Shown here: in pieces, positions 41,710-64,000 of the stretch | Layout: each line of letters opens with the position of its first letter | Position numbering within the stretch: the first letter of the stretch is position 1 | DNA from: Natronosalvus vescus | GTDB taxonomy: Archaea > Halobacteriota > Halobacteria > Halobacteriales > Natrialbaceae | Length of the DNA: 64,000 nt | Direction of reading: 5' to 3' | Assembly: GCF_023973145.1 (NCBI RefSeq) | Contig: NZ_CP099546.1 | Span: 62,001 to 126,000, forward strand | Made by a program: the position numbers and the translations under genes | Notes under the pieces: generated by a model | Databases searched by the model: none | The model's input: only the letters and a program-made list of their open reading frames with translations | What the model was told of the DNA's origin: nothing

Positions 41710-41803
41710 CTGCTAGCGATCAGAGGTAGAACTATAGGCACAAGCGGCCGTAAGATCTCGGCCCGATGCTGGAACATCGAGCCTTGTGCCTTGGGATAAG
41801 GCA

Positions 41804-42157
41804 ATGACGACTACAACGACCACGCACGAAACCGTTTCGGCTGAACCACGAACGAACACCATCCTCGAGCGCCCGGGCTCCCATTACACCTACCTCGGCG
41901 AGGACACCGAAGGCGGGCATCACCATCTCAACGAGGAAACGGACACGATCTACGTCACCGACCACCCACCGGAACGCTACCTCCCCACCAACGCCGCAAT
42001 CTACTGGTTCCGCATCCATGGAGCCCTCGAGCACGTCGAACCCCTCTCCTCACGCTTGGTGCGCGAGTGGGTGGCCTACGTCGACCACGTCCGCGGGTGG
42101 ACGACTCCACCGCTGCTGATCAACGCCACGTTCCTCCAGGGAGGGTTCAACCGATGA
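41804..42157 (+). CDS. Conserved accessory protein, first gene of a four-gene operon
   Basis: The ATG at 41804 gives 117 residues: a Thr-rich start, an LERPGSHYTYLGEDTEGGHH segment and a C-terminal RLVREWVAYVDHVRGW helix. No catalytic motif or membrane segment is present and I do not recognise the family. Its TGA overlaps the next ATG, and four such tightly packed genes lead to the 295-residue protein whose 3' end recurs downstream. This fits an integrated plasmid or provirus operon. Confidence 0.65.
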   Translation: MTTTTTTHETVSAEPRTNTILERPGSHYTYLGEDTEGGHHHLNEETDTIYVTDHPPERYLPTNAAIYWFRIHGALEHVEPLSSRLVREWVAYVDHVRGWTTPPLLINATFLQGGFNR

Positions 42158-42273
42158 CGCCCATCCACATCACCGACGACGGCACCCGACTCGTCCTCGA
42201 GCTCGAGCAGCCCATTACACCCGGTGACCTCGAGCGCGCCTACTGCACCCTGCTCGAGGAGGTGGCGCGATGA
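42154..42273 (+). CDS. Tiny coupled protein (39 aa)
   Basis: The ATG at 42154 overlaps the stop of the preceding gene and its own TGA overlaps the ATG at 42270. The product, MTPIHITDDGTRLVLELEQP followed by a short helix, is acidic. Coupling on both sides and biased haloarchaeal codon use support it as real; no function is known. Confidence 0.5.
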   Translation: MTPIHITDDGTRLVLELEQPITPGDLERAYCTLLEEVAR

Positions 42274-42485
42274 TCACACTCGAGTGGACGCCTCTTGAGG
42301 GCCGCCCCCGAAAAGTGGTGTTCGACTCCCAGCCTGAGGGCGCGTGTGCCTGGCTCCGGTGTGAGTACGAACGCCGAAACGGCAGGTGGCGCCTGTGTGG
42401 CTGTGAGCCCCTCGCGTCGCTCACGCTCGAGCAGGCGGGCACCGACACGGATCTGACGACCCACCGGGGTGAGGGCGATGTCTGA
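42270..42485 (+). CDS. Small protein with Cys pair (71 aa)
   Basis: This 71-residue protein reads RPRKVVFDSQPEGACAWLRC, then EYERRNGRWRLCGCEPLA. Four Cys residues could bind zinc, though the spacing is irregular. It overlaps the previous gene by four bases and the next gene (ATG at 42478) by eight bases. The family is unknown; the role is probably linked to the 295-residue protein encoded next. Confidence 0.5.
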   Translation: MITLEWTPLEGRPRKVVFDSQPEGACAWLRCEYERRNGRWRLCGCEPLASLTLEQAGTDTDLTTHRGEGDV

Positions 42486-43365
42486 GGCGCTCACGGCCAT
42501 CTGTGACCGACTCGAGACGCTCGAGAACCAGAACCACCGACTCACCGACCGCGTCGACGACCTCGAACGCGATCTCGAGCAGACCCAGACGAAACTCGAC
42601 CAGACACAAACCGATCTCGAGGCACTCGAATTGGAGAACGAACAGCTTCGCAATCGCCTCGAGAGCCACCAGACCGACCTCACCCAGACCACGGCCCTCA
42701 CCGAGGCCACCCGCAAACGCACGGGCGCCAACAAAACCCGCCTCGCGGAACTCCAGGCGCGCGAACTCGAGAAGGGTGCGCACCTGCTCGCCGACGGTGT
42801 CGACCCCGATGAGATCGATATCGTGGGTGACCACCTCGAGCGATTCACCAAGGACGATGGGCAGACCTACGTTCGCCTACCCGATCATGACGACCCGCTC
42901 GAGCGCGGTGGCTCGCCGACGCTCACCCACGGCGATCTCCTCCCGATCCAGCAACTCGCTCGGATGGACGACGACATGCTCCGATCCACCACGAACGCCC
43001 TGCCCACCAGACTCGCTGCCACGCTGTGGAACGCACGGGTGGACTCGAGTGTGGGTGACAACCCGTGGCAATCGGGCTGCAAGGGTATCAAGGAGTACGT
43101 GAAAGCCAGTGACCTCAAACATTGGATCCGCCGCCAAGAGCGCGGTGTCAGTGACGCGTATGCAAAGAAGCTCGTCTCGAGAACCATCGATGCCCTCCTC
43201 GACCTCTCACACAATCGAGTGGCCGTCCGGAAACGCACCGAACGAAAGAACGGCCTCGAGTACACTGAACGTCGACTGATCATCCCGATAGATGCAGCAA
43301 TCCCTGGTGAGACAGGCACCTCGAGTGAGTCCACACCACCGGAGACAGCTGACGTCCTCGGGTAA
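42478..43365 (+). CDS. Coiled-coil plus winged-helix-like protein; parent copy of the repeated gene tail
   Basis: This is a 295-residue protein. Residues 1-100 are a strong coiled coil rich in Leu/Glu/Gln (LENQNHRLTDRVDDLERDLE). Residues about 110-290 are globular, with GDLLPIQQLARMDDDMLRST, LAATLWNARVDSSVGDNPW and KGIKEYVKASDLKHWIRRQE. A basic KKLVSRTIDALLDLSHNRV, then RKRTERKNGLEYTERRLII segment looks like a DNA-binding winged helix. It is the only complete copy. Its 3' end and/or flanking sequence recurs at about 44.39-45.12, 47.48-47.74, 48.85-49.08, 50.26-50.35 and 50.88-51.0 kb. A plasmid maintenance or replication-accessory role is plausible but unproven. Confidence 0.75.
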   Translation: MSEALTAICDRLETLENQNHRLTDRVDDLERDLEQTQTKLDQTQTDLEALELENEQLRNRLESHQTDLTQTTALTEATRKRTGANKTRLAELQARELEKGAHLLADGVDPDEIDIVGDHLERFTKDDGQTYVRLPDHDDPLERGGSPTLTHGDLLPIQQLARMDDDMLRSTTNALPTRLAATLWNARVDSSVGDNPWQSGCKGIKEYVKASDLKHWIRRQERGVSDAYAKKLVSRTIDALLDLSHNRVAVRKRTERKNGLEYTERRLIIPIDAAIPGETGTSSESTPPETADVLG

Positions 43366-43560
43366 CCATGGACATCCTCGAATAACCTCCCTCGAGAGAG
43401 GCCTTACATCTCACACAAATACCTGAACCACGCGCTGGGACGGTCTGTTAGTGGGTTGGTTACTGGACAGTGGGTCGCTCGAGCTGTCCTCGGCAGTCAC
43501 ACAACGAGACACCACCACAGCGGTCACCGAAGACGACGACTGTCCACGGTGAACCACTCC
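43366..43560. repeat. 3' flank of the repeated gene, copy 1
   Basis: Non-coding DNA after the parent gene contains CCATGGACA at the stop, TCGAGAGAGGCC, GGTCTGTTAGTGGGTTGGTT, ACAGTGGGTCGCTCGAGC and CACCGAAGACGACGACTGTC. The same ordered landmarks recur after copies 2 and 3, so the flank was copied together with the gene tail. Confidence 0.8.
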
Positions 43561-43662
43561 ACAGCAATTCCCAGTCGAGTACAGAGAGAGAGAATATGAC
43601 GAGTCTCAATCACAGGGATCCGTCAGTTTCCTGAACGCTCACCGGTGGGTTCAAGACGCTGC

Positions 43663-43677
43663 GTAAGGAACCCTTAC
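43663..43677. promoter_or_regulatory. Inverted repeat at the antitoxin start
   Basis: A perfect GTAAGG-AAC-CCTTAC inverted repeat ends five bases before the ATG of the AbrB-type antitoxin. AbrB/MazE-fold antitoxins commonly bind such sites to repress their own operon, so this is a candidate operator. Confidence 0.4.
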
Positions 43678-43682
43678 ATAGA

Positions 43683-43943
43683 ATGAGTACCGATCCCGAA
43701 GTAACGACGGTCACCTCGAAGGGGCAGATCACGATTCCAAGTCGGCTTCGTGAGCAGTTCGGCCTCGAAAAGGGAACGAAACTGATGGTCGTACCGACGG
43801 AGTACGGCCTCGTCTTAAAAAAGATTGATCTTCCATCGGTCGAAGAGTTCCAGAAACGCGTCGAACAACGTGAGAAAAACGTTGAGCTCTCGATGGACGA
43901 GGTCAGCCGACTGGTACACGACGCACGAGGCGCTGATGAATGA
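43683..43943 (+). CDS. AbrB/MazE-fold antitoxin (VapB-like)
   Basis: This 86-residue protein has the swapped-hairpin AbrB core VTTVTSKGQITIPSRLREQF, then EKGTKLMVVPTEYGLVLKKI, followed by an acidic helix (EEFQKRVEQREKNVELSMDE) that would wrap the toxin. It neutralises and co-represses with the PIN toxin, whose ATG overlaps its stop by four bases. A palindrome lies directly upstream. Confidence 0.88.
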   Translation: MSTDPEVTTVTSKGQITIPSRLREQFGLEKGTKLMVVPTEYGLVLKKIDLPSVEEFQKRVEQREKNVELSMDEVSRLVHDARGADE

Positions 43944-44356
43944 GAGCTGTTCTTGATACAAACGTTCTCATCTCCTCCGTCATTTCGACCGGCACTCCTC
44001 ACGAGGTGGTTGTCGCAGGGTTCAACGGTGAGTATCAGATTGTCGTGTCTGTCGCCACGTTGATGGAGTTTCGGGAGACGCTCCTAAAATATCCAGATCG
44101 GTTCCAGATGGAGAGAGAAGACGTCCAGAAGGAAGTGGAGACCATCCGGTACTTTGCAGAGTTTGTGGAGCCAAACGAAGAAATCACAGCAGTGGTGGAT
44201 GATCCTGATGACGATAAATTCTTGGAGGCGGCTATTGCGGGGAACGTGGATTACCTCGTTTCCGGCGACAAACATTTGTTGACTCTCGAGTCGTTCCGAG
44301 GAATCGAGATTGTCACCCCACGAGCGTTCTACACACTCCTTTCGGAGGATACCTGA
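43940..44356 (+). CDS. PIN-domain toxin (COG1569-like VapC)
   Basis: This 138-residue PIN ribonuclease has the first acidic residue in AVLDTNVLISSVI (near 4-16), ELMEFRE-like VATLMEFRETLLKY near 38-51, and the DDPDDDKFLEAAIAGNVDYL, then VSGDKHLL block (near 88-115) typical of the COG1569 subgroup. PIN toxins cleave RNA. It is translationally coupled to the AbrB-type antitoxin. All acidic residues are present, so it should be active. Confidence 0.88.
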   Translation: MRAVLDTNVLISSVISTGTPHEVVVAGFNGEYQIVVSVATLMEFRETLLKYPDRFQMEREDVQKEVETIRYFAEFVEPNEEITAVVDDPDDDKFLEAAIAGNVDYLVSGDKHLLTLESFRGIEIVTPRAFYTLLSEDT

Positions 44357-44387
44357 AGACCACGACGAGCCTCGAGGAACGCTAAGC

Positions 44388-44928
44388 GCGTACCCTCGAG
44401 CGCTTCACCAAAGACGATAGTCGGGCCTACGTCCGCCTCCCCGATTACGACGACCCGCTCGAGCGCGGTGGCTCGCCGACGCTCACCTACGGCGATCTCC
44501 TCCCGATCCAGCAACTCGCCCGGATGGACGACGATATGCTTCGCTCGACGACCAACGCCCTGCCCACGCGGCTGGCTGCCACGCTGTGGAACGCACGCGT
44601 GGACTCGAGCGTGGGCGACAATCCCTGGACGACCGGCTGCAAGGGTATCAAGGAGTACGTCAAAGCCAGCGACCTCAAACACTGGATTCGCCGGAAAGAG
44701 CGCGGTGTCAGTGATGCGTACGCCAAGAAACTCGTCTCGAGAACCATCGACGCCCTTCTCGAGCTCTCACACAATCGGGTGGCCGTCCGGAAACGCACCG
44801 AGCGAAAGAACGGCCTCGAGTACACCGAACGCCGGCTGATCATTCCGGAGGACGTGGAGATCCCTGGTGAGACAGGGAACTCGAATGAAAACACCCCGCC
44901 ACCGGAGACAGCTGACGTCCTCGGGTGA
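44388..44928 (+). pseudogene. Gene-tail copy 2 of the 295-residue protein
   Basis: The frame from about 44392 corresponds to residues about 120-295 of the parent gene at 42478: LERFTKDDSRAYVRLPDYDD, then QLARMDDDMLRSTTNALPTR through to the PPETADVLG end. No start or coiled-coil half exists. The first usable start (44524) is internal. Similarity to copy 1 is high at DNA level, with mostly silent changes, and continues into the 3' flank (44929-45115). Confidence 0.85.
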
Positions 44929-47740: not shown

Positions 47741-47809
47741 AACCGATCTGCAAATGCCATCCCGACCGAGTCAAACGATTTTAACGATTCCCTGTGTACA
47801 TTCGAGGTA

Positions 47810-48399: not shown

Positions 48400-48465
48400 A
48401 CACTCCTCAGTAGAGAATATCTGAGCCTGAGGTTCCCACGTGGGCTTGCTCACAATCCAACGCTC

Positions 48466-48803: not shown

Positions 48804-48844
48804 AGTGCTCTAGTCGGGTTGCGTTCGTTTATATGTTTTAGCGA

Positions 48845-49080
48845 GCCCCAGAATTGGTCTCGCGAACCATCGACGCCCTCCTCGCCCTATCGAACAATCG
48901 GGTGGCCGTCCGCAAACGCACCGAGCAAACAAACGGCCTCGAGTACACCGAACATCGACTGATCATTCCGGTAGACGCAGCGATCCCCGTTGAGACAGGC
49001 ACCTCGAGTGAGCACACACTACCGGAGACAGCTGACGTCTTCGGGTGACCATGGACATTCTTGAATAACCTCCCTCTCCC
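48845..49080 (+). pseudogene. Gene-tail copy 4 with short 3' flank
   Basis: Starting abruptly at LVSRTIDALLALSNNRVAVR, the frame matches residues about 230-295 of the parent gene through RKRTEQTNGLEYTEHRLIIP to PETADVFG and the TGA at about 49048. The flank keeps CCATGGACATTCTTGAATAACCTCCC (closest to copy 1) and then diverges at about 49080. The left breakpoint coincides with that of copy 6. Confidence 0.8.
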
Positions 49081-49161
49081 TCTCACGTACTTCTCTACCA
49101 AATTCCGGGGTCGCCAGCGATCTCACGCCACGACCACCCTACAGTACCAATCACGTCTCCC

Positions 49162-49276
49162 TCACTCGACAGTGACGCTTTTGGCCAGGTTGCGCGGCAT
49201 ATCGATCGACCGACCCAGCCGGTTGGCCACCCAGTAGGACACCAGTTGGAGCTAGACGTTCGCGAGGATGGGCGTC
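49162..49276 (-). pseudogene. glmS: Remnant of the 3' end of glmS
   Basis: The minus strand reads PILANV, a stop (TAG where the family has CAG/Gln), then LQLVSYWVANRLGRSIDMPR, then NLAKSVTVE and a natural TGA. That is the exact C-terminus of glucosamine-6-phosphate synthase. Only about 38 codons survive. GlmS makes the aminosugar precursor for glycans, so the fragment may mark former continuity with a glycan locus. It abuts the stop of the PIN toxin gene. Confidence 0.8.
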
Positions 49277-49730
49277 ACTGATCTGGGAGCGGTACGTCGG
49301 CAGGGACGAGTGTCATGCCAAGGGTGCGGAAGTCAGTATCGAACGCAAAGACGTGATCGATGCCTCGTTTGTCCGCGAGAACCGTCGTCAGATGATCGAC
49401 CAGCGTGATCTGTTGGTCATCGTACCGTTCGAATTGGTTGCACGTCGCGGCGAACTCCTCTTCATCTGGGTGGATGATGGTGAAGGCAGGCGACTCACGG
49501 ATCCGAGTGAGGCCTCGTACCGCGGCCGCGTGGTCACGTTTTCGCATCAGGAGCGTTCCGAGTTCGCTGAGGACATGCGACGTCGTATACAGCGGTCGGT
49601 AGTGGAGCTGTCCGGCGGCGATCGCATCGAAGACGGCACTCGCGTGATCGTGGCGTGGCGCTTTCTCATCATACTGGGCGTAAAACGCCCCAGTGTCAAC
49701 GAACAGTGGTGTCGTGCCGGGCCCTGACAC
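49275..49730 (-). CDS. PIN-domain toxin (VapC-like)
   Basis: This 151-residue protein has LFVDTGAFYAQYDEKAPRHD near 9-28 (first Asp), SHVLSELGTLLMRKRDHAAA near 50-70 (Glu) and the C-terminal DHLTTVLADKRGIDHVFAFD near 110-130 (Asp pair). All metal-binding positions are present. Its antitoxin-like HTH gene lies three bases upstream. The C-terminal codons run into the glmS remnant, so the last few residues may not be native. Confidence 0.87.
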   Translation of the reverse strand: MSGPGTTPLFVDTGAFYAQYDEKAPRHDHASAVFDAIAAGQLHYRPLYTTSHVLSELGTLLMRKRDHAAAVRGLTRIRESPAFTIIHPDEEEFAATCNQFERYDDQQITLVDHLTTVLADKRGIDHVFAFDTDFRTLGMTLVPADVPLPDQ

Positions 49731-49733
49731 GCG

Positions 49734-50084
49734 TCAGCCCTCGAGTTCGCCGTAAACAACGTCATCAATCTCGTCTTCATCAACGGGCTCATCAGACGCG
49801 AAGAGCGCTCCCTTGGAAAAGAAGGGATCGTCGTCGGCGATCGCGCACCTGTCGCTGTCTGTGGTTGTGAGCCACCACACCGTGTTCCGGCCACCGATCT
49901 GTTTACTCTGAACGAGATTTCGATCCTCAAGGGCGCGAAGTCGGTCGAGCGTCGTTCGTCGTTCGATCGGGAGATGGTCGGCGATTTCAGCCGTTGACAA
50001 GACGGGATCCTCCGTCGAACGGAGAACCGTGAGGATGTCTTCGTCGGTTGCGCGGGGTCTTCGCCCGCTTGAAGAGTTGCTCAT
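49734..50084 (-). CDS. HTH antitoxin paired with the PIN toxin
   Basis: This 116-residue protein has a winged helix near 14-70 (LRSTEDPVLSTAEIADHLPI, then ERRTTLDRLRALEDRNLVQSK and NTVWWLTT) and an acidic tail DEPVDEDEIDDVVYGELEG likely to hold the toxin. It is the first gene of a two-gene operon with the PIN toxin three bases downstream. Confidence 0.82.
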   Translation of the reverse strand: MSNSSSGRRPRATDEDILTVLRSTEDPVLSTAEIADHLPIERRTTLDRLRALEDRNLVQSKQIGGRNTVWWLTTTDSDRCAIADDDPFFSKGALFASDEPVDEDEIDDVVYGELEG

Positions 50085-50420
50085 GGTATTCCTTCGAAGT
50101 GGAACCGCAAAAAGGTACTCCTTAGACGGCCATCCTCTATCCTTTGAAGGCGGGAATAGCAGAAAAATGCGTCAAAAGGGGAAATATACAGTTTTTCAAT
50201 AACCGTCTAAGGAATGAGACTGGAGTAGTACTCGCTTCTCGGGGAGTTCGGTCTCGATAAAACACCAGCACTGGAACGGGTTATTGGTGGGTTGGTTACT
50301 GAACAGTGGATCGCTCGAGCAGCCCTCGGCAGCCACACAAAGAGATACAAGGGAAGCGCGTACCGATGACAACGGCGAGTTGGGTCAGCCGTACATCAGC
50401 GATTACACATATCTTTAGAG
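50085..50420. repeat. Copy 5: 3' flank of the repeated gene only
   Basis: After the antitoxin promoter region, 50264-50350 carries GGGTTATTGGTGGGTTGGTT, GAACAGTGGATCGCTCGAGC and AGCCCTCGGCAGCCACACAA. These are landmarks of the repeated 3' flank without any gene tail. The rest of this stretch has no gene. Confidence 0.65.
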
Positions 50421-50812
50421 TCACTCGGCGAGTCGGTGTCGAAGCACGTAGCCGATTCCACCGAGAGCCCCGACGAGGCCGATGATTGGGCCGAAGCCGA
50501 GGCCGGATGGGTCGTCGTCCGTGTCGGCCTCTCCCTGTGCGCTATGGTCGTCTTCTACGTCGCTATCGTCATCGTCGTCGCTCGTGTCGTCCTTTCCATC
50601 GTCTTTCGGCGGCTCGACGGAGGTGACGGAGACGGTGGTGACCGTTTCGACTCCAACATCGAACTCACCCTCGGCATCGAACGCGTAGACGAACTCGAGC
50701 GTCGTCTCCTCACCGCCCGCAAGCGTCACGTTCGTGTCATCGACGACCGCGCCGTCGGCGAGTAACTCGATCGTCTCCGTGCCGGATTCGTCGCCGACGT
50801 TTGGTAATCTCG
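50421..50812 (-). pseudogene. C-terminal remnant of an anchored surface protein
   Basis: The minus-strand frame reads LPNVGDESGTETIELLADGA, then NVTLAGGEETTLEFVYAF, part of a CARDB-like module. A DDDDDSDVEDDHSAQGEAD linker and a GLGFGPIIGLVGALGGIGYV anchor with basic end follow. No signal peptide or natural start; the frame is cut at about 50812. It resembles the tails at 12.8-13.8 kb and the end of the giant surface protein. Confidence 0.65.
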
Positions 50813-50879
50813 TTAGGGGCGTTACTCGGTGTCGTACTCATCATCCTTCGTCACCAGTCATAGCAATCCCAATAGCTCG

Positions 50880-51005
50880 TCTCACGAACCATCGATGCCC
50901 GCCTCGACCTCTCGAAACATCGTGTGGCCATCCGCACTCGCATCGAGCGGACGAACGACCTCGAAGTACACCGAGCCCGACGGATCTCTACCTCGAGCCA
51001 GGTGC
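50880..51005 (+). pseudogene. Gene-tail copy 6 (most degraded)
   Basis: The sequence reads LVSRTIDARLDLSKHRVAIR, then TRIERTNDLEVHRARRIST. It matches residues about 230-268 of the 295-residue protein, starting at the same LVSRTIDA position as copy 4 and decaying before the end. It is the farthest copy from the intact gene. Confidence 0.7.
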
Positions 51006-51243
51006 GTCGTATGCTATCAGATTCTCTGATCCGCCAGACCAAACGATCTACGACGTCCTCGGCGTCGATGGATACGGCGAATTCGCCGGCGAGATTGAAC
51101 TGTGGAACCACAACTCCGGTTCGTGGCAGTCCGTTACCGGCGATTGTGAGTTACAGTACGCCGACACGCTCTATGTGTTGTGTCTCGTGACGTTATCGCC
51201 GTATTCGTGGCGAAGTCGCGGGTCAAGCGTGGTGTTCCTGTGA
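51000..51243 (+). pseudogene. Unidentified protein fragment
   Basis: A plus-strand frame reads LYLEPGASYAIRFSDPPDQT, then IYDVLGVDGYGEFAGEIELW. It looks like real protein (beta-rich, acidic) cut on both sides: its left end merges into gene-tail copy 6 and its right end into the antisense CPBP gene. I do not recognise the family. Confidence 0.4.
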
Positions 51244-52831: not shown

Positions 52832-54236
52832 TGAACCGCCTCGGGGTCAAGCCCCGAGGCTTCCCGTGGTTTAATCGGACACTCCCACGCGACCATCGGC
52901 TTGGTGGCCTCGAACGGTTGCGTGGGTCACGGTCGGCTGGTTCACACAGCCCGATGCCTGCCGTCGCAGTTTCCGAACAACCGGAAGCGTGTTGAGAGCA
53001 GGCACATTTCGATTCAACTTCTCCAATCCTTTCTTCGCAATATTCACTGCCGCGTTTCGGTCAGCGTGGTCTTGCCGACCACACGCGTTGCACTTGAACC
53101 GCTTCTCCCGGCGATTCGACCGAGTCGTATGCTCACACTTTGAGAAAGAACACGTCTGGCTGGTGTACGCCGGGTCGATGTCATCGCTTGGAATCCCCTC
53201 GAACGCCGCTTTGTACGTGACGAACGAGCGGAGTTTGTGAAACGGTAGTGAGTGCAACCGACGATTCATCCGAGTACCGTAATCAATCGAATCTCGCATA
53301 TGCTTGAGGTCTTCAAACACAACGAGCGGCGACACGAATTGCTGAACCCACTCCACAATTCGCCGGGAGACTTGGTGGAGTTGGTCGTGAACGTATCGTT
53401 CCTCTTTGTCCTCGAACACGCGGTCGAACGCTGTCTGGCCAGCGTTTTGCATCCGCTTGCGCATCGTGAAGTATCGATGACGTTCTTGCTTGATTTCGGG
53501 GTAGTCGATGACAACCGAATCAACAATGTCATCTTCACGAAGGGCTGAAAGAGCCACGCAATCTTCGTTGATGTCTACGCCTACAATGGTCTGAGCGTCG
53601 TGTTTGTCTTGAACCGTGGCTTCGAGATGAGTAACGTTGACGTGTAGTTCGTGATTTCCGTTGCGTGCCATCGCTTCGGCGGTTCCGATACGCCACTCGT
53701 CACGTTCGAGGGCGTGTTCGAGGAGTTCGAGGGTGTCTGGTGCGCCACGAAGTGTACCTTTCACCGGATTGTACGGCTTGGCACTGATTCGGTAGTGTAT
53801 CCCGTTGTCTTTGCGTGTGAGATTGTAGCCTTCAGTGAAGTTCATTCGCAACGGGTATGGCCCAGTTTTCTCGTGACTGGGTGTGTTGTAGTCGTCGCGG
53901 TTGTAGGACTGCTGAAGTGCATCAAGTGCTTTAGCGACAATGCGTTGCGTGGTGTTCTTCACGAGGTCTGCCTCGTCTTCAAGACGTGGTGAGATGTCGT
54001 CCCAGTCCATCCCGTTTTTCGCTAATTGGATGGTCTGGTTGTACACCCAACGCGCTTCGTGGTACGCTTCGGAAAGAAGTCGCCCGTTATCGGATTGAAG
54101 TTGGAAGACGAGTGTCTTCGTAAGCGACTTCTCCATACCCTAATCGACGGACTCGGGTGTTGTAAAGGTATGGATTAGCGTTGATAGGTTAGGCGTTGTC
54201 GGCTTCATCTCGGGGTCAAGCCCCGAGGCACTCGCC
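52832..54236 (-). mobile_element. TnpB-only IS200/IS605-type element
   Basis: About 1405 bp, oriented on the minus strand. Both ends carry a CTCGGGG-TCAAG-CCCCGAG hairpin (about 52840-52859 and 54209-54228). On the minus strand the left end is preceded by TTCAA, the likely target-adjacent motif, and no target duplication is present, as expected for this family. Removing it restores an open frame. No TnpA is encoded, so it depends on a helper transposase. Confidence 0.85.
52871..54136 (-). CDS. tnpB: TnpB RNA-guided nuclease
   Basis: This is a 421-residue protein. The RuvC-like core is complete: VGVDINEDCVALSAL near 185-199 (Asp), VVFEDLKHMRDS near 271-282 (Glu) and GRQDHADRNAAVNIAKKG near 350-367 (Asp). 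A four-Cys zinc finger (CSFSKC, then CNAC) lies near 330-350. TnpB uses an RNA from the element's right end to cut DNA next to a short motif, which helps keep the element in place. The guide here would come from the flank at the 52831 side. Start ATG at 54136. Confidence 0.93.
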   Translation of the reverse strand: MEKSLTKTLVFQLQSDNGRLLSEAYHEARWVYNQTIQLAKNGMDWDDISPRLEDEADLVKNTTQRIVAKALDALQQSYNRDDYNTPSHEKTGPYPLRMNFTEGYNLTRKDNGIHYRISAKPYNPVKGTLRGAPDTLELLEHALERDEWRIGTAEAMARNGNHELHVNVTHLEATVQDKHDAQTIVGVDINEDCVALSALREDDIVDSVVIDYPEIKQERHRYFTMRKRMQNAGQTAFDRVFEDKEERYVHDQLHQVSRRIVEWVQQFVSPLVVFEDLKHMRDSIDYGTRMNRRLHSLPFHKLRSFVTYKAAFEGIPSDDIDPAYTSQTCSFSKCEHTTRSNRREKRFKCNACGRQDHADRNAAVNIAKKGLEKLNRNVPALNTLPVVRKLRRQASGCVNQPTVTHATVRGHQADGRVGVSD

Positions 54237-56017: not shown

Positions 56018-56446
56018 TCACCGTTCGGTGTGTTCCCAGACTTCACCAAGTCGGATGTCAGTCTCTGTTAACACCATCGTTACGACATCGAAAAAGTCAG
56101 TAGGGTATTTTCTGTCAACGGCATCCTCTGTCCGGGCCTGTGGTGGCTGGTGGTAGTGATCTCGAGTATTGTGTGGGTTGTCGTGGCGATCCCATCTGAC
56201 CATCCAGTCTCCACCCGACCTGACCTCTCGATAAATCACGTTAAAATCACCATTTTGATAAGTTCGAAGCCCGAGGTCAACGCGGCGTATCTCTTCAGGG
56301 AAGTATACATCGTCAAACTGTGCGACGACTGACTCTGGTTTCTGTCGTGGAAACACACGGACAGTGTCGATTAGCGTCAATGCACCGAGTCTCTGAGCAA
56401 CTTTACGCAACAGTGCCTCATCAAGCGTCTTCTCGTCAGTATTCAT
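56018..56446 (-). CDS. Putative toxin-like protein paired with an HTH gene
   Basis: This 142-residue protein has central text GLRTYQNGDFNVIYREVRSG, then MVRWDRHDNPHNTRDHYHQP. The WDRHxNPHxxxxHxH cluster recalls the RYDNxPHHPxxxxHHxH signature of TumE/DUF6516 toxins, and like those it is encoded directly with a winged-helix gene (10 bases apart, same strand). I infer a toxin-antitoxin-like or regulatory pair; the family is not firmly recognised. Confidence 0.55.
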   Translation of the reverse strand: MNTDEKTLDEALLRKVAQRLGALTLIDTVRVFPRQKPESVVAQFDDVYFPEEIRRVDLGLRTYQNGDFNVIYREVRSGGDWMVRWDRHDNPHNTRDHYHQPPQARTEDAVDRKYPTDFFDVVTMVLTETDIRLGEVWEHTER

Positions 56447-56455
56447 TTCACGAAA

Positions 56456-56983
56456 TCACGCCGGAGCTTGCGCACTCCCGTTCTGGTTTTGCCGTGCTTG
56501 CTCGAGTTCTCGAATCCGTCGCCGAACCGTCTGCCATTCCTGGAGCTCCATCCAGACCGATTCGAGATCGGTGTAGTCCGCGTGCTCAAGGGCGTCAACC
56601 TCTCCAGGCCCGTCAGCGTCGTATCGGTCACGGTAGTCACGCTCGGTGGCAGTAAGTTGCTCTAGCTCCTCTTCTAATTTCTCAGGAGGATGTGCCTGGA
56701 GACGCTGGATGCGACGCCATTCGAAGTATGACTCATTTCGACTGAACTGATCCGGAGATTCACCATCGTGAGTCAGCATGCCGATTTCTGTGAACCACCG
56801 CAGATACTCGCGGGCGGTTTCCTTTGAGACGTCTGCTCGGTCTGCAACGATTGCGACACGCGTTGGTTCATACAATTGAAGTGAAACGGCGTACACGCGC
56901 TCTCTCGTCGACTGCTTTTCTCTCTGCTGTTCCCACTCCTCAGCTAGTTTGGGTGGCCGGTCTGAGTCACCATCCGAACTCAT
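56456..56983 (-). CDS. Winged-helix regulator with helical tail
   Basis: The ATG at 56983 gives 175 residues. The winged helix covers about 35-90 (VAIVADRADVSKETAREYLR, then WFTEIGMLTHDGESPDQFSR and SYFEWRRI). The rest is a charged helical region (LEELTATERDYRDRYDADGP-like). It is related to the proteins at 45298-45852 and 38231-38542. It lies just upstream of the putative toxin-like gene and probably regulates it. Confidence 0.78.
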   Translation of the reverse strand: MSSDGDSDRPPKLAEEWEQQREKQSTRERVYAVSLQLYEPTRVAIVADRADVSKETAREYLRWFTEIGMLTHDGESPDQFSRNESYFEWRRIQRLQAHPPEKLEEELEQLTATERDYRDRYDADGPGEVDALEHADYTDLESVWMELQEWQTVRRRIRELEQARQNQNGSAQAPA

Positions 56984-57236
56984 AGTTGTGTACAAACAAG
57001 AGCTGAAGACGCATATAATTTGCCACCGCATAATATATTCAGCACTGTCTCGAGATGTGATCTTGCCATCCCTATGTGAACTCTACGACGTTCTCGGCAA
57101 AAGTGGGAGTCAGTATGTAGAAAATATCTGGGAGGTGATATAGCCCCCTCCAAATTCCGAATAACGCCGGCCGGCCGGTGTCTGCAAGCATTTTCGGCGT
57201 TTCTACCTCAAGACCGATACAAGACTCGCTCTTGCA
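56984..57236. other. Intergenic region downstream of the conjugation/primase operon
   Basis: No gene is seen. The segment about 57165-57180 holds a GCCGGCCGGCCGG run (GC-rich palindrome) that could stop transcription coming from the primase gene. The AT-rich part near 56990-57050 probably carries the promoter of the HTH/toxin-like pair. Confidence 0.35.
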
Positions 57237-58406
57237 TCACTCTTTTTGAGGACAAACCTGCCGCCATACCTTCTGCCACAGCGAGAGCGAACGTCCCGCA
57301 TCTGACTGGCGTCTTCTTTTCTCACCACTATTCGAATTACCAACCTGAATTTCGTCGTTTCGCTTGACACTCCTCTCAAACTCACTAATCAATTGGTTCT
57401 TCTCCTCGAGAGTGGCCTCGAGTTCTTCGACCCGCTTTTCGAGGATTTTGTTCTTCTTCTCGAGGTATTGTTGGTGTCGTGTAGTCGATGGCTCACTTCC
57501 GGCCCTCTGATCCGTTTTCCCGTCTCGAACCCGTGGCTCATAGAACTCGCTCGTATGCTCAACAGCACGCTCGAGCGTCCGTTCCCCATAGGTACTGCCA
57601 TCGCCGTAATGGACATCGTCCCACTTCGCTCGAACCAACCCAGAGTGTCGAAACAGTCGATCCATCTGGTGGTGATCACCTCCCGTCCAAAACGCCAGCA
57701 GACAACAGAGCGCCATATCGGCCTCTGAGTGGCTGTCATATCCGACAGTCGAGCCACTCCAGAGCCGTTCGAACTTCTCACCGTTGGAGGCTGCTCGCGC
57801 TTTCTTGAGGACTTCCTTATTTGAGAGAGTACTCGAGACGCTCTCATCACTCCTCGAGGTTTCTCCTCCACTCGAATTCTGATCGACGTGCTCACGATGA
57901 ACCATCTCGAGTTCTGGCTGCCTGGACTCGATTTCCGTTGGCAACCCAGGAACGTGTTCGCCAGTCACCGTGAAATATCGAGCACGATCGTAGAGTTCGA
58001 TTTTACCGCGCCGATTCCTGCCTGGTGGGAGTTCACCGTCAACGATGACGTGATACCCAGTCCCCGACGGAGAGACTTCGGTATACGAATCGAGCTGCTG
58101 GACAATCGACTTCATCTCGGGATCCGGACGTCCTGTCTCCGGATCTCGACAGTCATCAAGATCGATCCCGACGTACGGATCATCCTCCGTGAACACAAAT
58201 CCAATTCCGTCACAGCCCCCCGCGTGGACATACTCGAGGGCACTCTCGAAATCCCTCCAGGTACTATCGTCCGTCGAAGAGCCGAAAGCCCCGGTCTGTG
58301 GATCGATCGGGATCTTAGTTGACTTTCCATTTCGCTTCTCGCTTCGCCAACAGAGCCACTGGTCTCGAGCCCGCATCGCTTCTGGAATTGCTGTTTCGTC
58401 TATCAT
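57237..58406 (-). CDS. Primase-polymerase-like replication protein of a mobile element
   Basis: This is a 389-residue protein. The N-terminal domain, RDQWLCWRSEKRNGKSTKIP (about 14-33), DPYVGIDLDDCRDPE (about 76-90, Asp-x-Asp metal site) and SGTGYHVIVDGELPPG (about 113-128), fits the bifunctional primase/polymerase (NrS-1-like) fold. The middle SEADMALCCLLAFWTGGDHH, then YGERTLERAVEH is the usual primase-associated helical module. The C-terminus is a coiled coil. No helicase domain is fused. It precedes the conjugation genes' 3' end by five bases, so it is the last gene of that operon and presumably primes replication or transfer. Confidence 0.8.
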   Translation of the reverse strand: MIDETAIPEAMRARDQWLCWRSEKRNGKSTKIPIDPQTGAFGSSTDDSTWRDFESALEYVHAGGCDGIGFVFTEDDPYVGIDLDDCRDPETGRPDPEMKSIVQQLDSYTEVSPSGTGYHVIVDGELPPGRNRRGKIELYDRARYFTVTGEHVPGLPTEIESRQPELEMVHREHVDQNSSGGETSRSDESVSSTLSNKEVLKKARAASNGEKFERLWSGSTVGYDSHSEADMALCCLLAFWTGGDHHQMDRLFRHSGLVRAKWDDVHYGDGSTYGERTLERAVEHTSEFYEPRVRDGKTDQRAGSEPSTTRHQQYLEKKNKILEKRVEELEATLEEKNQLISEFERSVKRNDEIQVGNSNSGEKRRRQSDAGRSLSLWQKVWRQVCPQKE

Positions 58407-58411
58407 GGGAA

Positions 58412-60547
58412 TCAGTCAGAGAAGGCTTTGTCCTGCTGACCGTCACCCCGTTGACGGTCAGCGATAGAATCCACCGTCTCTGTGGCCCTGTGTGGGAGTG
58501 AATCCCGACCCCTTGCTTTCGGGTCGAAATCGATAACAGCCGTTTCGTTCTCCATGGCTCGAACCTCGATCCCGCGCCACTCGCCATCGACGCCGACGAG
58601 TGCTTCAGAGTAGCCTGTTCGCTCACTCCCCGGCATGGCCTCCTGGACGAAGCGCATCTGTGCTGAGTTGAGGCCGAATTCGTCTGCCCACTCGCTGTCC
58701 ATCCCATCGAGGTGGTGGAACTGCTTGATGGCACACTGATCGATGATCGCCTCGGATTCTGCGTGTTGGAAGAACTCGTCGACGGTCTGGGTGGCGAGCC
58801 TGATAGACAGATTGTGGTGACGGTGGTGGCGAAACACGATCTCGAGATATGCGAGACTCGCCGCATCCTGCATGATGTAGCGGGCCTCGTCGATGACGAA
58901 GACGACCTCTTTGTCGGTCTCCTTGGCACGCTCATATACCAGTGAGATCAACAACTGCATGATGAGACTCGTGCTCCCACCGAGGCTGCCTTCCTGTTGA
59001 GCCAGGTCGAGGTAGATCACCTTCTCGTCGCGAATATCGAATTCAGTTTCACGTCCGAGATTCTCATACCGACCACCTGCGGCGAAGGGGCGTAACTGGT
59101 CGACTAACCACGTTGCATCGTTGCCGATCTTGATCGACTCTTTGTGCGTTCGAACGACGTAGGCCAATGGATCTTCGACCATCTCGACGAGAATATCGAT
59201 GACGTCCCGCATCGTCGGGCTCTCGTTGTGGTGGGTTGCGATATCGTCCGTGATTCCCTTCTCTCTATACGCCTCTTCGATCGCCAACTCGAGCGTCGTT
59301 CGTCGATCGCCGAGTTGGATTCCCCGGTGGGCGAAGTAGTTCGTCAAGAAGCTCATGACGCTATCGAGTTTCTCGCGGTATGGGCTCGCATCCTCTCCCA
59401 TCGCTCGCTGGACGCGTTCGGGTGTGGGCTTGAGCTCGAGTGGATTGAGCCCCATATTCCCACCAATGGTGATTCGTTCACCCCCGAGTCCCTCGGCGAC
59501 ACCGGCCCAGTTGTTCAACGGCTCGAGGATGATCCCGATTCGATCTTCGCTCTGTTCGATCGAGCGGATGAAGTTCTGCTTCGAGCCAAACGACTTTCCA
59601 GAGCCTGGATCGCCAATCGTGAACATCGCATAGCCGTTCTCTCGAGCGAAGGGATCGATCACGACCGGGCTCTGATTCTTCCAGTGTGAGCCGAATTCGA
59701 CGCCGCCGTCCTCGAGAATCGTCGCGTTGTGGAGTGAAGCGAACAGGGCACCGACAGCCCCGCCGAGTGCGGTTGCCTCGCGTCCAAAGGGATTCGTGCC
59801 GATCGGGGATGCTGCCTGAATCGCGAGATCCTGCTTACAGATCGCTGTCTTCGGTGAGAGGCCAGCTGGTTGTTCGCGAAGCCGGCTCCGAATCGTGCGG
59901 ACGCTCTCTCGGAGTTGATCTCGGGTATCTGCGCGTACGGTGATGAACAGCGCCTGGTCGAACACGCGGCTGCCGTTCTCGACACTTTTGTACGTCGACC
60001 TGGCCGCGATTGCCCGATCCTGCAAATAAGAGCCACGCACGCTCCGCTCGAGATCGGCATCAACCTGCAGATCATCGGCAATTCGTTGCAGTTCGTCTCG
60101 AGCCTGCTCTTGGTTTCGCGGTCGGAGATGAACGGTGAGGTCGAACTCGACGTCGGTCAGTTCGAAGAGTTCGTTCAGATAGCCATCTTTCGGATAGTCT
60201 GGATACTCCGCAATGTAGAGCGTCGACGTCCACTGCTCACCGACACGAGCGGTACGCGTATCCCACTCGATCGCCGCCGGTGCAACGAGATTCTGGTGGC
60301 GCTCAGCAATGTCATCGAGAAGCGCCCCCTCCTCGACACCCTCGTTCAGTGTTGACTCCTCGAGTAGCTCACTGAGTTTGACTTCCTCGACGTCGTCTGT
60401 CTGCCATCGATCCCATCCGATTTTCACGAGCAGCGTCACCAGCGCAGTGATACCGATGTAGAGGGCGAATCCAGCCTGTGTCGATGGATCCGGAAGCGTC
60501 GATGAAAGCTCCAGTAGGAACCCGATGAACGCAGCTCGAGCGATCAT
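58412..60547 (-). CDS. VirB4/TraC-like conjugation ATPase
   Basis: This 711-residue protein starts with two hydrophobic segments (about 1-38). It has a VirB4-type middle region, Walker A TIGDPGSGKSFGSKQNFIRS near 308-325, Walker B EVVFVIDEARYIM near 545-556 and a sensor QTVDEFF near 585. It energises a type IV-like DNA-transfer channel at the membrane. It overlaps the next gene upstream by four bases and ends five bases before the primase gene start. Confidence 0.9.
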   Translation of the reverse strand: MIARAAFIGFLLELSSTLPDPSTQAGFALYIGITALVTLLVKIGWDRWQTDDVEEVKLSELLEESTLNEGVEEGALLDDIAERHQNLVAPAAIEWDTRTARVGEQWTSTLYIAEYPDYPKDGYLNELFELTDVEFDLTVHLRPRNQEQARDELQRIADDLQVDADLERSVRGSYLQDRAIAARSTYKSVENGSRVFDQALFITVRADTRDQLRESVRTIRSRLREQPAGLSPKTAICKQDLAIQAASPIGTNPFGREATALGGAVGALFASLHNATILEDGGVEFGSHWKNQSPVVIDPFARENGYAMFTIGDPGSGKSFGSKQNFIRSIEQSEDRIGIILEPLNNWAGVAEGLGGERITIGGNMGLNPLELKPTPERVQRAMGEDASPYREKLDSVMSFLTNYFAHRGIQLGDRRTTLELAIEEAYREKGITDDIATHHNESPTMRDVIDILVEMVEDPLAYVVRTHKESIKIGNDATWLVDQLRPFAAGGRYENLGRETEFDIRDEKVIYLDLAQQEGSLGGSTSLIMQLLISLVYERAKETDKEVVFVIDEARYIMQDAASLAYLEIVFRHHRHHNLSIRLATQTVDEFFQHAESEAIIDQCAIKQFHHLDGMDSEWADEFGLNSAQMRFVQEAMPGSERTGYSEALVGVDGEWRGIEVRAMENETAVIDFDPKARGRDSLPHRATETVDSIADRQRGDGQQDKAFSD

Positions 60548-61644
60548 TCTTCTTCCCTCCGTTGGTGACCGAGTATTGGGTACTCACGAACCGCGTCCGC
60601 TGTCTCATCATAGTCGTGTTGCTCGCCGTTCCAGAACTCCGTTGCGAGGATGAACAACTCGACCGTACTCAACCGTCGGGCAGACCACCCAGGAACCTTC
60701 TGGATGAACTCCGCCTGAATCGTTCGACATCGATTCTCGAGTTTCCTGAACATCGCCGCTCGAAGCTCGGCATCAGCCATGTTCTCTCGACGAGTCACGA
60801 ACGGATTGAAGAGAAAGCCGATCACCGGAAACGAGGTGAGCTTCTCCGCTGGCGAGCGTTCGTCCTGATACCGGTTATAGACCTCGAGTGGTGCGACTTC
60901 GACGCCGATAAAAAACCGGAGTTGGTGTGTGCCAGCGAGTTCACGGGGGCGTTTCTCTCGATACTCCTCGAGCAATGCTTCGAACACTGGATTCTGCTCG
61001 ACGTCTTCGTCAGTGAGTCGGTCATCGATCTGGTCGATCAACGTCTCTACCGGGAATGGTCGGGTTGTCGCGTGGAACGTAAGTGGGAAATCCAGCTCTC
61101 TGTTGGCGAACTCTTCACCCAGTCGTTGGATCTGTGCCCAATCGCCCGACATAGCAAAGTCCATGTTTCCAGGATCGATCTCGAGGAAGGCCTCCATCGC
61201 CCCATCAGACCGCTCTATGGCACCGGCACCTGGCCAGGCGCGTTCGATACTGGTGAGATCCTGCGTTCGCTCGTCGGGTTGAAACGGCGTGTAGCTCACA
61301 AGCCCGCCTTCGGTTGTTGACGCTGCCGACTCCTCAGCCGTCTCGGAACTGTAGGTAAATCGAGGCCGTTTGCAGTAGTATCGATAGACGTCTGCCAGCC
61401 ACGTCGAGGCAGGGAGATGACTCGGTGAGGCATAGACGATGGCCGTGCCAACGATAACCCCGAGGAGGACGAACGGAAGGACGACCCCATCGAGGCCGGT
61501 GAACCCACCAACGAGGAGTCCCACAATGGGAAACCCAAGCAAGACGTAGACGTCGCCCTCTGCGATATTCAGCAGTGGAATCCGATTCTGTTCGCCCAGT
61601 TCATCCATAATACGCCGTCCAGCTGCACCGTGTTCTCGAGCCAT
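60544..61644 (-). CDS. Conjugation-associated membrane protein
   Basis: This 366-residue protein has two hydrophobic segments near 31-70 (LLGFPIVGLLVGGFTG, then VLPFVLLGVIVGTAIVY), a PrgI-like membrane hairpin, followed by a soluble alpha/beta region. That region (SDGAMEAFLEIDPGNMDFAM, then LDFPLTFHATTRPFPVETLI) resembles the N-terminal part of VirB4-type proteins. Together with the VirB4-like gene it probably forms the channel ATPase complex. Four-base overlap with the downstream gene and one-base coupling with the upstream one. Confidence 0.75.
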   Translation of the reverse strand: MAREHGAAGRRIMDELGEQNRIPLLNIAEGDVYVLLGFPIVGLLVGGFTGLDGVVLPFVLLGVIVGTAIVYASPSHLPASTWLADVYRYYCKRPRFTYSSETAEESAASTTEGGLVSYTPFQPDERTQDLTSIERAWPGAGAIERSDGAMEAFLEIDPGNMDFAMSGDWAQIQRLGEEFANRELDFPLTFHATTRPFPVETLIDQIDDRLTDEDVEQNPVFEALLEEYREKRPRELAGTHQLRFFIGVEVAPLEVYNRYQDERSPAEKLTSFPVIGFLFNPFVTRRENMADAELRAAMFRKLENRCRTIQAEFIQKVPGWSARRLSTVELFILATEFWNGEQHDYDETADAVREYPILGHQRREEE

Positions 61645-62798
61645 CAGTAGTACCCCGGATCGTTCTCTGTTCGTCGATACGTCTCGATACCTTCCTGTCC
61701 GTAGGCGTCACTCGCGATATTGTCGTGAGTCGTTTGACTACCTCCAGGGCTCGAGTGAGTGCTAGTACTCGAGGATGGCCCAGATGATCCACGCTCACGC
61801 ATCTTCGAAGCGACCGTGTAGCCCGCTGCAGCTTTTGGCCCCCACATTGCGGCCGAGGATGCAGCAGCAGGCCCAGCGATCGCCCCAGCGCCGACGACAG
61901 CCCCTGCAGTCATCGTGGCCTTCGTCGTTCCACCAATGATCCTTGTGGTCATCGGCGTGGCGTACTTGAACAGCTTCCAGACGATGATGATCGACAGGAT
62001 GGGGAGCGTGACGGCGATGAGGTAGCTCAAAAAGTTGCTCTCTGGAGCAATCGCTCCACTCGAGCCCTCTCCGAATAGTAGGTCGTATCCTCTGAACAAC
62101 AGTGCAACTGGAATCGGCATCACTGCGAGGGGAACGAACTTCATACAGACCGTCCGAGCCATCTCAGAGACCACAGGAAGGTTCCCGTACGCGAGGGCAA
62201 TCCCGATCGGCATTGCATAGATGAAGATGTACAGTATGATCTCTCGCAGGAAGAATAACGCCTGGAGAACCCACATCGCCAGGGCTCCGATCCCGGCTAA
62301 GAACAATGCGAGAAGTGGGTTGGAAAGTGTCGCATCAAGGAACGATCCGACCGCAACCATTAGTGCCGACACATCCGGAATCAATGCGATAGTAAACCCG
62401 TCTACAAGATAGAGTGCCAGGACAGCAATCCAGTACCAAGTAACAATCAAGAACGCGCCTGTCCAGGCACTCCGTGTAGCCTTTCGGGATTCGTATACAC
62501 TTCCAATATTGAAAATACGGATCGCGTGTCGGCCCTGAACGCACATCACCAGCAACAACAGTGAGATGATCATGACGTCGCCAGTCACAAGCGACTCATA
62601 GATCTGTTCCCAGGGTGCGTTCGTTGGTTGCCCAAATACGAACGCACCACCTGTCTCTGGTGTCGTGGTTCCGAATATCTGCGCAGTGACGGCATCGTAT
62701 CCGTCTGTTAGCCCCTCTTGAAACCATTCGATGAGCTTGTCAACTGCATCCTCGAACCACTTAATCCCGATATCAGAGAGTGACCAGGCAAGCATCAC
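61644..62798 (-). CDS. VirB6/TrbL-like polytopic channel protein
   Basis: This 384-residue protein has an amphipathic start (WFEDAVDKLIEWFQEGLTDG), then six to eight membrane segments between about 75 and 320, a Gly/Ala-rich AGAVVGAGAIAGPAAASSAA stretch and a Ser-rich cytoplasmic tail. This is the topology of VirB6/TrbL channel components of type IV secretion. It is coupled to the lipoprotein gene by an ATGA overlap. Confidence 0.78.
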   Translation of the reverse strand: MMLAWSLSDIGIKWFEDAVDKLIEWFQEGLTDGYDAVTAQIFGTTTPETGGAFVFGQPTNAPWEQIYESLVTGDVMIISLLLLVMCVQGRHAIRIFNIGSVYESRKATRSAWTGAFLIVTWYWIAVLALYLVDGFTIALIPDVSALMVAVGSFLDATLSNPLLALFLAGIGALAMWVLQALFFLREIILYIFIYAMPIGIALAYGNLPVVSEMARTVCMKFVPLAVMPIPVALLFRGYDLLFGEGSSGAIAPESNFLSYLIAVTLPILSIIIVWKLFKYATPMTTRIIGGTTKATMTAGAVVGAGAIAGPAAASSAAMWGPKAAAGYTVASKMRERGSSGPSSSTSTHSSPGGSQTTHDNIASDAYGQEGIETYRRTENDPGYY

Positions 62799-63649
62799 GT
62801 AGCAACCTCTATCTCTAATTGACAGCCTTCCACGTCCGAGGTTAGGTAGTCAATATCGTAATCGATGGTCGAATTCTCAGATGAATGGGGTGCTGTGAGT
62901 TCAATAGTAAACTGTCCTCCTTCGCCAACGGTCTCACACTGATTCGGTATCCTCGACGAAGAGAACGGGAGAGTACTGCTAAAAACGCGAACGGTTTCTC
63001 CAGATGGGATTATAATCGCATCAGCATTTCCAATGAAGTCGTCGTCAATATCATATATTCCACTATCTCCAGTCTCGTCGTAGCTACTGTCTGTCGGAAG
63101 TGGGACATCACCCCTAAAACGAAGAGCAGTAACTGCAGTTGGGGCAGAACCGGTATTCTCGAGAATCACGATTGCCCCACCATCCTTAGCCAGTCTACCA
63201 GCCCCTTCGTACATCTCCTCTGGATGATCTCGAGCCAACCGAAGATCGACAAACTCGAGATTCGGCTCGAGTGTCATCGTTACCGATCCCATTGTCTCAT
63301 CACCAGAGAGTGCGATGAACTCGTAGGCACCGGGAGTGTACTCAAAGCCCAGTTCAATCTTCGTCCGGGTAACACCTGCCTCGATATCTCGATAGGCAAA
63401 TAGCTCACCAGCGGGATCGATGACGTTCAATCGTGTGGTTGCATCGCGCTCGAGATCGATGACCAACTGTGTCTCATCGACGGTAACGGACTGAATTGGG
63501 CCACTCTTCTCATCATTAATCTTCGAATCCGAGTGATCATCTTGATCCGCCGAATCACTCCGACTCGCACACCCTGCGAGGGCGGCCACGAGTCCGGTTG
63601 TTGCTCCAGTGAGGACGGTTCGTCGGCAAATCCGCTGTTCTATAGTCAT
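62795..63649 (-). CDS. Tat-exported lipoprotein of the conjugation operon
   Basis: This is a 284-residue protein. The N-terminus ICRRTVLTGATTGLVAALAG with Cys at 27 is a twin-arginine signal plus lipobox, so it is folded before export and lipid-anchored outside. A Ser/Asp linker and two beta-sandwich-like regions follow (VTVDETQLVIDLERDATTRL and GGAIVILENTGSAPTAVTAL). Position suggests a surface component of the mating apparatus. Both ends overlap neighbouring genes by four bases. Confidence 0.8.
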   Translation of the reverse strand: MTIEQRICRRTVLTGATTGLVAALAGCASRSDSADQDDHSDSKINDEKSGPIQSVTVDETQLVIDLERDATTRLNVIDPAGELFAYRDIEAGVTRTKIELGFEYTPGAYEFIALSGDETMGSVTMTLEPNLEFVDLRLARDHPEEMYEGAGRLAKDGGAIVILENTGSAPTAVTALRFRGDVPLPTDSSYDETGDSGIYDIDDDFIGNADAIIIPSGETVRVFSSTLPFSSSRIPNQCETVGEGGQFTIELTAPHSSENSTIDYDIDYLTSDVEGCQLEIEVAT

Positions 63650-64000
63650 AATGTATCGTCTCTGATTTTCAGGAAGGTTCCGATGCGTGTTGCAGCGTAG
63701 AGAGCGACAGCAAACGGGAGGGCATACCGGATGACGTCAACCAGGAGGGTGAACCATCCAGCTGTCGTTTCCAGGGGGTGCCACGTGTCGGTTGCCGAGT
63801 CTCCGAGGTAGGCTGGCTGGTGTGAGCGCCACGAGCCTGGGTGATACGTTGCCGTGTAGATGCCTGGCTGGGTAACCGTGACTTCGACACGGCCAGACAG
63901 ATCCGTTCGAACAACCTGATCGCCAACGGTGATGTATCCTGCTCGAGCGTCCTGCCCTATGATCGATAACCGAGAATCATCATCCCAATTCTCGAGCGTT
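63646..64000 (-). CDS. Partial membrane-anchored extracellular protein (5' end outside window)
   Basis: The minus strand is open from the right edge to a TGA at 63646-63648, giving 117 residues: WDDDSRLSIIGQDARAGYIT, a TVTQPGIYTATYHPGSW beta-sandwich with aromatic residues, then a C-terminal membrane helix (TLLVDVIRYALPFAVALYAA) and a short basic end. It is the C-terminus of a larger anchored protein with an Ig- or VWA-like ectodomain. Its stop overlaps the lipoprotein's ATG, so it belongs to the same operon. Confidence 0.75.
   Translation of the reverse strand, partial: TLENWDDDSRLSIIGQDARAGYITVGDQVVRTDLSGRVEVTVTQPGIYTATYHPGSWRSHQPAYLGDSATDTWHPLETTAGWFTLLVDVIRYALPFAVALYAATRIGTFLKIRDDTL

Follow-up and report, generated by a model that had tools for sequence, protein, structure and literature searches.

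A chromosomal type IV secretion operon with a displaced candidate coupling ATPase in Natronosalvus vescus, probably part of an integrated conjugative-type element

Introduction

Cell fusion is the usual explanation for gene exchange among haloarchaea. An operon found at one end of a chromosomal stretch of Natronosalvus vescus raises the question of whether these organisms also encode a machine dedicated to DNA transfer and, if so, whether such a machine is mobile or fixed in the chromosome. The stretch analysed, hereafter the window, comprises 64,000 nucleotides and corresponds to bases 62001-126000 of a genome assembled as one contig of 3.84 Mb. From its sequence, a conjugation-like operon ending in a stand-alone primase-polymerase had been predicted. 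VirB4/TraD-type genes in haloarchaea are described, and no description or test of this operon was found in the literature searched. According to a 2025 review, euryarchaeal conjugation has been demonstrated once, for pT33-3 in Thermococcus (PMC12857230).

Layout of the operon

Six genes of the operon extend from 57237 to 65406 in window numbering, every one of them on the minus strand and at the place given by the original prediction. From the VirB4 gene through the ectodomain gene, neighbours overlap by 4, 1, 4 and 4 bases, and 5 bases separate VirB4 from the primase-polymerase (PrimPol). When followed past the window edge, the order is pilin, ectodomain protein, Tat lipoprotein, VirB6, VirB3/PrgI-like protein, VirB4 and NrS-1-type PrimPol. 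The proposed operon is confirmed and is longer than first thought: the pilin gene at its head, immediately beyond the window edge, had been missed. A sigma-70 promoter scan gave nothing usable, this model not being suited to archaea.

The conserved core

The channel protein (384 aa; 61644..62798, minus strand) was predicted to be VirB6/TrbL-like, and indeed its full length is covered by Pfam TrbL_3 (E 2.1e-202). The predicted VirB4-like ATPase (711 aa, with one N-terminal transmembrane segment; 58412..60547, minus strand) is likewise well placed: it matches the Pfam family P-loop_TraG (E 1e-6), its profile aligns with the solved VirB4 structures 4AG5/4AG6 (E 3e-15), and the motifs GDPGSGKS (Walker A) and VFVIDE are kept. 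The protein also matches the CD1110-family VirB4 model of NCBIfam at E 1e-39, a score below the model cut-off. Against the CedB model it obtains 13 bits (E 0.028) where the cut-off is 700 bits, which places it outside that family.

Between VirB6 and VirB4 lies the gene for a membrane protein of 366 aa (60544..61644, minus strand), assigned to the VirB3/PrgI position from this location and from hydropathy, which predicts two N-terminal transmembrane segments followed by a soluble domain of about 290 aa. It is conserved across 19 homologues and gave no convincing Pfam match and no PDB match in profile searches. It had been labelled PrgI/VirB4-N-like; the PrgI position stands, but likeness to the VirB4 N-terminus was rejected on an hhalign probability of 0.1.

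The first gene of the operon (contig 127429-127878), 22 bases ahead of the ectodomain gene, encodes a TrbC/VirB2-like pilin of 149 aa, whose signal peptide ends in LAQ and which has two other transmembrane segments and two invariant cysteines. Signal peptide and transmembrane segments agree with a pilin of this type. The Pfam TrbC/VirB2 pilin family is matched by 12 of the 21 pilin homologues, the best with E 1e-3, under the curated cut-off; for this reason the name VirB2-like is used here as an unproven one. A search of the PDB with the pilin profile gave no match. Judging from sequence comparison, the pilin-like protein, the VirB6-like channel, the VirB3/PrgI-position protein and VirB4 are the conserved core of the system.

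The primase-polymerase and the displaced ATPase

The gene at the operon end (389 aa; 57237..58406, minus strand) encodes a PrimPol, as had been proposed, and one of the NrS-1 type. It matches Pfam NrS1-1_pol-like_HBD (E 1.2e-30), its residues 7-295 align with the solved NrS-1 primase 7RR3/6A9W (E ~5e-42), and the catalytic motifs DLD (82-84) and SPSGTGYH (112-119) are present. A fused C-terminal helicase domain is absent, as the PDB match ends at residue 295 and the remainder, a coiled-coil and basic tail, matches coiled coils only. In the compact form of the operon, to which the window's copy belongs, PrimPol stands directly behind VirB4, and PrimPol orthologs occupy this same place in other compact copies.

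It had been stated that neither a relaxase nor VirD4 was in view. This is true of VirD4 inside the window, and is rejected as a general claim about the system. The slot after VirB4 contains no ATPase in this genome, and 28 kb upstream, outside the window, lies a gene for a related ATPase of 1410 aa (contig 156385-160617) that matches Pfam TrwB_AAD_bind (E 4e-7). An ortholog is located 7-28 kb upstream of the operon, on the opposite strand, in each of the eight compact chromosomal copies compared, which are those of the window's genome and of G045, G174, G257, G270, G142, G143 and G202, the latter seven on large, chromosome-sized contigs. In Natrinema hispanicum the ATPase homologue is divergent from the pilin gene and about 2.2 kb from it, and in Halovivax (G255) the ATPase adjoins the PrimPol of that genome, with the T4SS operon some 60 kb away. 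A class-wide search with the C-terminal 610 residues as query, done on a reduced genome set and compared by hand, gave 32 strong matches, and for 18 of these a TrbL_3 gene is listed no more than 60 kb away on that contig. A PDB search with this protein gave nothing informative. We consider it a candidate coupling protein of the HerA/TrwB family. Many of the genes in the 28 kb that separate it from the operon have no counterparts in relatives; since ATPase and operon are linked across copies, this gap looks like cargo inside one module.

An extension of the sequence to the right had been suggested as a means of finding a coupling protein, a relaxase and an integrase. It yielded the coupling ATPase candidate. 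When the genes of the smallest element were compared with Pfam, no integrase or relaxase was recognised. Other genes of the module are a SWIM gene (contig 130958-131449) and a gene for an OB-fold protein (contig 144583-145521); the latter lies between operon and ATPase in seven of nine compared genomes, and its match to SSB-like proteins is weak (E 0.01-0.02). SWIM, TFB and ArdC-like genes accompany the module in many copies. As far as the sequences tell, the HerA/TrwB-family ATPase, the NrS-1-type PrimPol and the OB-fold protein are genetically linked to the core.

Surface proteins

The Tat lipoprotein (284 aa; 62795..63649, minus strand) carries a twin arginine and a lipobox (G-C27) that are invariant in 19 aligned homologues. 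It had been regarded as an unusual component for a mating machine, but this invariance argues that it is a normal part of the T4SS family. Its AlphaFold model is mostly beta (mean pLDDT 83), with two predicted beta-sandwich domains, and with Foldseek it matches, at low TM-scores, adhesins, receptors and glycosidases through their Ig/FN3-like domains. The domains are tentatively read as Ig-like.

The ectodomain protein (586 aa, minus strand) has its C-terminal part in the window (63646..64000) and the rest beyond the edge, on to 65406. A signal peptide, a beta-rich multi-domain ectodomain and a C-terminal transmembrane helix are predicted. The structural model, built for a homologue (pLDDT 80), found no specific match with Foldseek. 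That this protein could be a fusexin was considered and is unsupported, the fusexin structure being absent among the structural matches listed; a class II viral glycoprotein appears as a weak match, low among those listed. Both the lipoprotein and the ectodomain protein evolve faster than the operon core. Surface proteins often change fast.

Distribution and selection

A TrbL_3 gene was found in 121 of the 242 genomes sampled from the class, spread over 54 of the 74 genera; the 14 controls gave no match. In a sample of 197 genomes from the phylum it occurs in 19, all belonging to the window's own order. VirB4 relatives are present on 351 plasmid records, many of them distant bacterial ones, and the six-gene core from pilin to VirB4 is carried by a great many haloarchaeal plasmids, with VirB4 up to 86% identical to that of the window. 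Plasmid copies in the window's family usually run from pilin through ectodomain protein, lipoprotein, VirB6, PrgI-like protein and VirB4 to a giant HerA/TrwB-like ATPase, followed by a primase with its associated protein or by a PrimPol. A viral origin was rejected, as the viral contig collection yielded no relative and phage records only distant VirB4s, at about 20-25% identity. A 5.3-kb contig in a metagenome-assembled genome labelled as a PVC group bacterium (L082) bears the operon at 90% identity; mis-binning of a haloarchaeal contig is the likeliest explanation.

For all genes compared dN/dS was 0.05-0.3, dS being saturated in the wider comparisons, and we conclude from these sequence data that the operon genes are under purifying selection. 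In a VirB4 tree built by a quick method the compact copies do not cluster in a single clade: those of the window's genus group together, G143 and G202 make up a second group, and G142 is placed among plasmid forms. This pattern indicates that exchange with plasmids has probably occurred.

Insertion site and cargo

In a related genus of the Natrinema type the module occupies a site flanked by an aglB-like gene on one side and uppP-glmS on the other, next to cell-surface glycosylation genes. The site spans 24-40 kb where occupied (G142, G143, G202) and 1.0-1.4 kb where empty (G004, G005, G117, G163), a comparison made within this related genus. As the flanks of the site are 95-97% identical between G005 and G202, the insertion of some 40 kb is plain. 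In G174 the module adjoins the same aglB-like gene in reversed orientation. No clean direct-repeat att site was seen at the junctions examined in the related genus. The window's genome carries a diverged copy of the 3' end of glmS (window 49153-49264, contig 111153-111264; 75% over 112 bases), which together with the intact glmS at 174.3 kb brackets the module, and this repeat may be an old integration footprint, to be taken as suggestive only. The protein of the glmS fragment is 83% identical to Natrinema-type glmS, a closer match than that of the window genome's own glmS copies (about 70%).

At 41786..44928, plus strand, a small protein and a coiled-coil gene broken by cassette insertions were recognised by synteny with G045, G142, G143, G202 and G174. 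In the related genus the coiled-coil gene lies within the inserted element, by PrimPol, and the empty sites of 1.0-1.4 kb are too short to hold it. Copies of the 3' end of a coiled-coil gene, 73-88% alike, recur over window 41786-51100 (contig 103786-113100), where they alternate with small toxin-antitoxin-like genes (PIN, MazF and nucleotidyltransferase, by eye); the region looks like a cassette array, and a similar direct-repeat array exists in G045 at 2358-2365 kb. A DUF7342 winged-helix regulator (56456..57031, minus strand; Pfam DUF7342, E 1e-23) and a 142-aa partner (56018-56446) form a pair that recurs elsewhere in G045, G174 and G257. This pair (56018-57031) is probably accessory and possibly a toxin-antitoxin system.

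Other features of the region were also recorded. Window 13900-36000 has a low GC content (41-46% between roughly 22 and 34 kb), with glycosyltransferase and sugar-nucleotide genes by eye; the T4SS elements of related genomes likewise adjoin surface glycosylation genes. An ATPase_2/DUF234 protein (L002:12379-13785, contig 128379-129785) resembles PDC-S27, a candidate defence family of PADLOC (E 8e-58), and this gene recurs within or near the elements of several genomes. A 421-aa protein resembling IS605-type TnpB (window 52871-54136) has an 89%-identical copy in the matching region of G257, and a 2374-aa protein with an N-terminal hydrophobic segment is encoded at window 5495-12619.

What the element may do

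Taken together, these data lead us to favour, with some reservation, an integrated conjugative-type element of haloarchaea that exports DNA through a T4SS, with the operon as its transfer region. VirB4 would power the assembly of the pilin and the channel, and the HerA/TrwB ATPase would pass DNA to the channel. On the outer face, the Tat lipoprotein and the membrane-anchored ectodomain protein might attach to the partner cell or to glycans of its S-layer. Single strands could be coated by the OB-fold protein, PrimPol could prime the complementary strand and the ArdC-like protein may shield incoming DNA. The original prediction of a DNA-transfer machine would sit badly with homologues linked to pili or secretion and devoid of DNA-processing genes; instead, plasmid homologues lie beside primases and a coupling-type ATPase, and the chromosomal copies are linked to SSB-like and ArdC-like genes. 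Some points speak against an integrated element: a relaxase, an integrase and clean att repeats were not found in the smallest element or at the junctions examined, the OB-fold and TrbC matches are weak, the 28 kb between operon and ATPase in the window's genome holds many genes that the relatives lack, and the same insertion site in three species is also compatible with old vertical inheritance.

Vertical inheritance would fit an alternative that we consider unlikely, though less so than any other, namely that a former conjugative plasmid has become immobile and now serves as a chromosome-fixed machine that exchanges or imports chromosomal DNA between relatives, a haloarchaeal counterpart of Ced and Ted. 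The compact copies are chromosomal, have no recognised relaxase or integrase and are kept intact under purifying selection, and the same site is occupied in several Natrinema-type species. Moreover, TrbL, ectodomain protein, lipoprotein and coupling ATPase of G142 are nearest to those of G143 and G202, as vertical descent predicts, and Ced and Ted are themselves domesticated T4SSs with only VirB2, VirB4 and VirB6 homologues (PMC9905601). However, presence is patchy and close relatives have empty sites, G142 VirB4 clusters with plasmid copies, the orientation beside the aglB-like gene is reversed in G174, and the cargo includes ArdC-like and toxin-antitoxin-like genes. Somewhat more doubtful still is a specific form of this idea, in which the chromosome-fixed T4SS is a dedicated cell-to-cell DNA-exchange machine whose two Ig-like surface proteins choose partners, encoded beside S-layer glycosylation genes. 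If that were true, partner recognition and glycan type would vary together, and haloarchaea would have a counterpart of Ced and Ted distinct from cell-fusion mating.

It is improbable that the locus is a functionless, decaying remnant of an integrated conjugative plasmid. Decay does occur, as G028 retains just a partial VirB4 plus PrimPol, an IS-type gene separates VirB6 from the PrgI-like gene in the G174 operon, and the window's own element is diluted by cargo. Nevertheless, the reading frames of the seven operon genes and of the ATPase are uninterrupted both in the window's genome and in most relatives, and dN/dS well below 1 in all genes is not what decay would leave. A T4SS that delivers proteins, such as toxins or effectors, to neighbouring cells instead of DNA would account for exposed adhesin-like proteins and for the coiled-coil gene-end array and toxin-antitoxin-type genes that adjoin the operon, but the linked primase, coupling ATPase, SSB-like and ArdC-like genes and the plasmid-borne relatives indicate DNA and make this reading highly improbable. 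Packaging into virus-like particles or plasmid vesicles, as in pR1SE, which encodes a VirB4/HerA-like ATPase (PMC10818511), is scarcely credible, given that the viral contigs yielded no relatives, that phage VirB4s are so distant and that the pR1SE vesicle proteins are reported to be unlike conjugation proteins, whereas VirB6, VirB4 and pilin-like genes occur together here.

Comparison with known systems

The favoured reading of an integrated, DNA-exporting element can be set against several systems already described. Archaeal conjugative plasmids without recognisable relaxases are known (PMC9905601, PMC12857230). One of them, the Thermococcus plasmid pT33-3, needs VirB4- and VirD4-like ATPases for conjugation, and no relaxase was found in it (PMC12857230). 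The N. vescus system resembles it in having both kinds of ATPase and no recognised relaxase, but only VirB4 and VirD4 are recognised in pT33-3, whereas pilin-, VirB6- and VirB3-position genes are also seen here. The fsx1 (fusexin) integrated elements of haloarchaeal chromosomes are reported to carry VirB4, HerA and TraG/VirD4-type genes (PMC9259645); compared by description, they differ in their reported XerC/D integrase and fusexin, neither of which was recognised here. In Haloferax volcanii a TraD-annotated gene is induced under mating conditions (PMC7749143), which we also set beside the operon by description.

With the conjugative T4SSs of the Gram-positive type the system shares its nearest named VirB4 model, CD1110, an envelope of one membrane and the fact that no VirB11 was seen. 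It departs from them in that VirB4 scores well under the family cut-off, the surface proteins are archaeal and no relaxase, VirB1 or VirB8 was found. Ced of Sulfolobales and Ted of Thermoproteales are chromosomal derivatives of archaeal T4SSs that have no relaxase and combine VirB2-, VirB4- and VirB6-like parts (PMC9905601, PMC11868833), features that the operon shares or, in the case of the VirB2-like pilin, may share. In contrast, PrimPol, the Tat lipoprotein, the ectodomain protein, a separate coupling-type ATPase and plasmid-borne relatives set it apart. By its VirB4 sequence the system is outside Ced, yet it could work in a similar way.

Its closest likeness is to plasmids of haloarchaea. 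The plasmid unnamed3 of Natronorubrum bangense has the same order from pilin to VirB4, with TrbL, PrgI-like protein and VirB4 75-83% identical, and Halobacterium pNRC200 carries a partial relative of the operon. The haloarchaeal plasmid T4SSs differ in having a HerA/TrwB-like ATPase of 1200-1450 aa directly behind VirB4, and then a primase, with its associated protein, or a PrimPol; the ATPase of N. vescus is displaced and belongs to another subfamily, with 27-43% identity to those of the plasmids. On the evidence of these sequences, the operon belongs to a widespread and well-preserved T4SS family and represents a chromosomal variant of it, in which the candidate coupling ATPase is displaced. 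Such a widespread core would make haloarchaeal conjugation directly testable, and the operon supplies defined exposed proteins that could set mating specificity.
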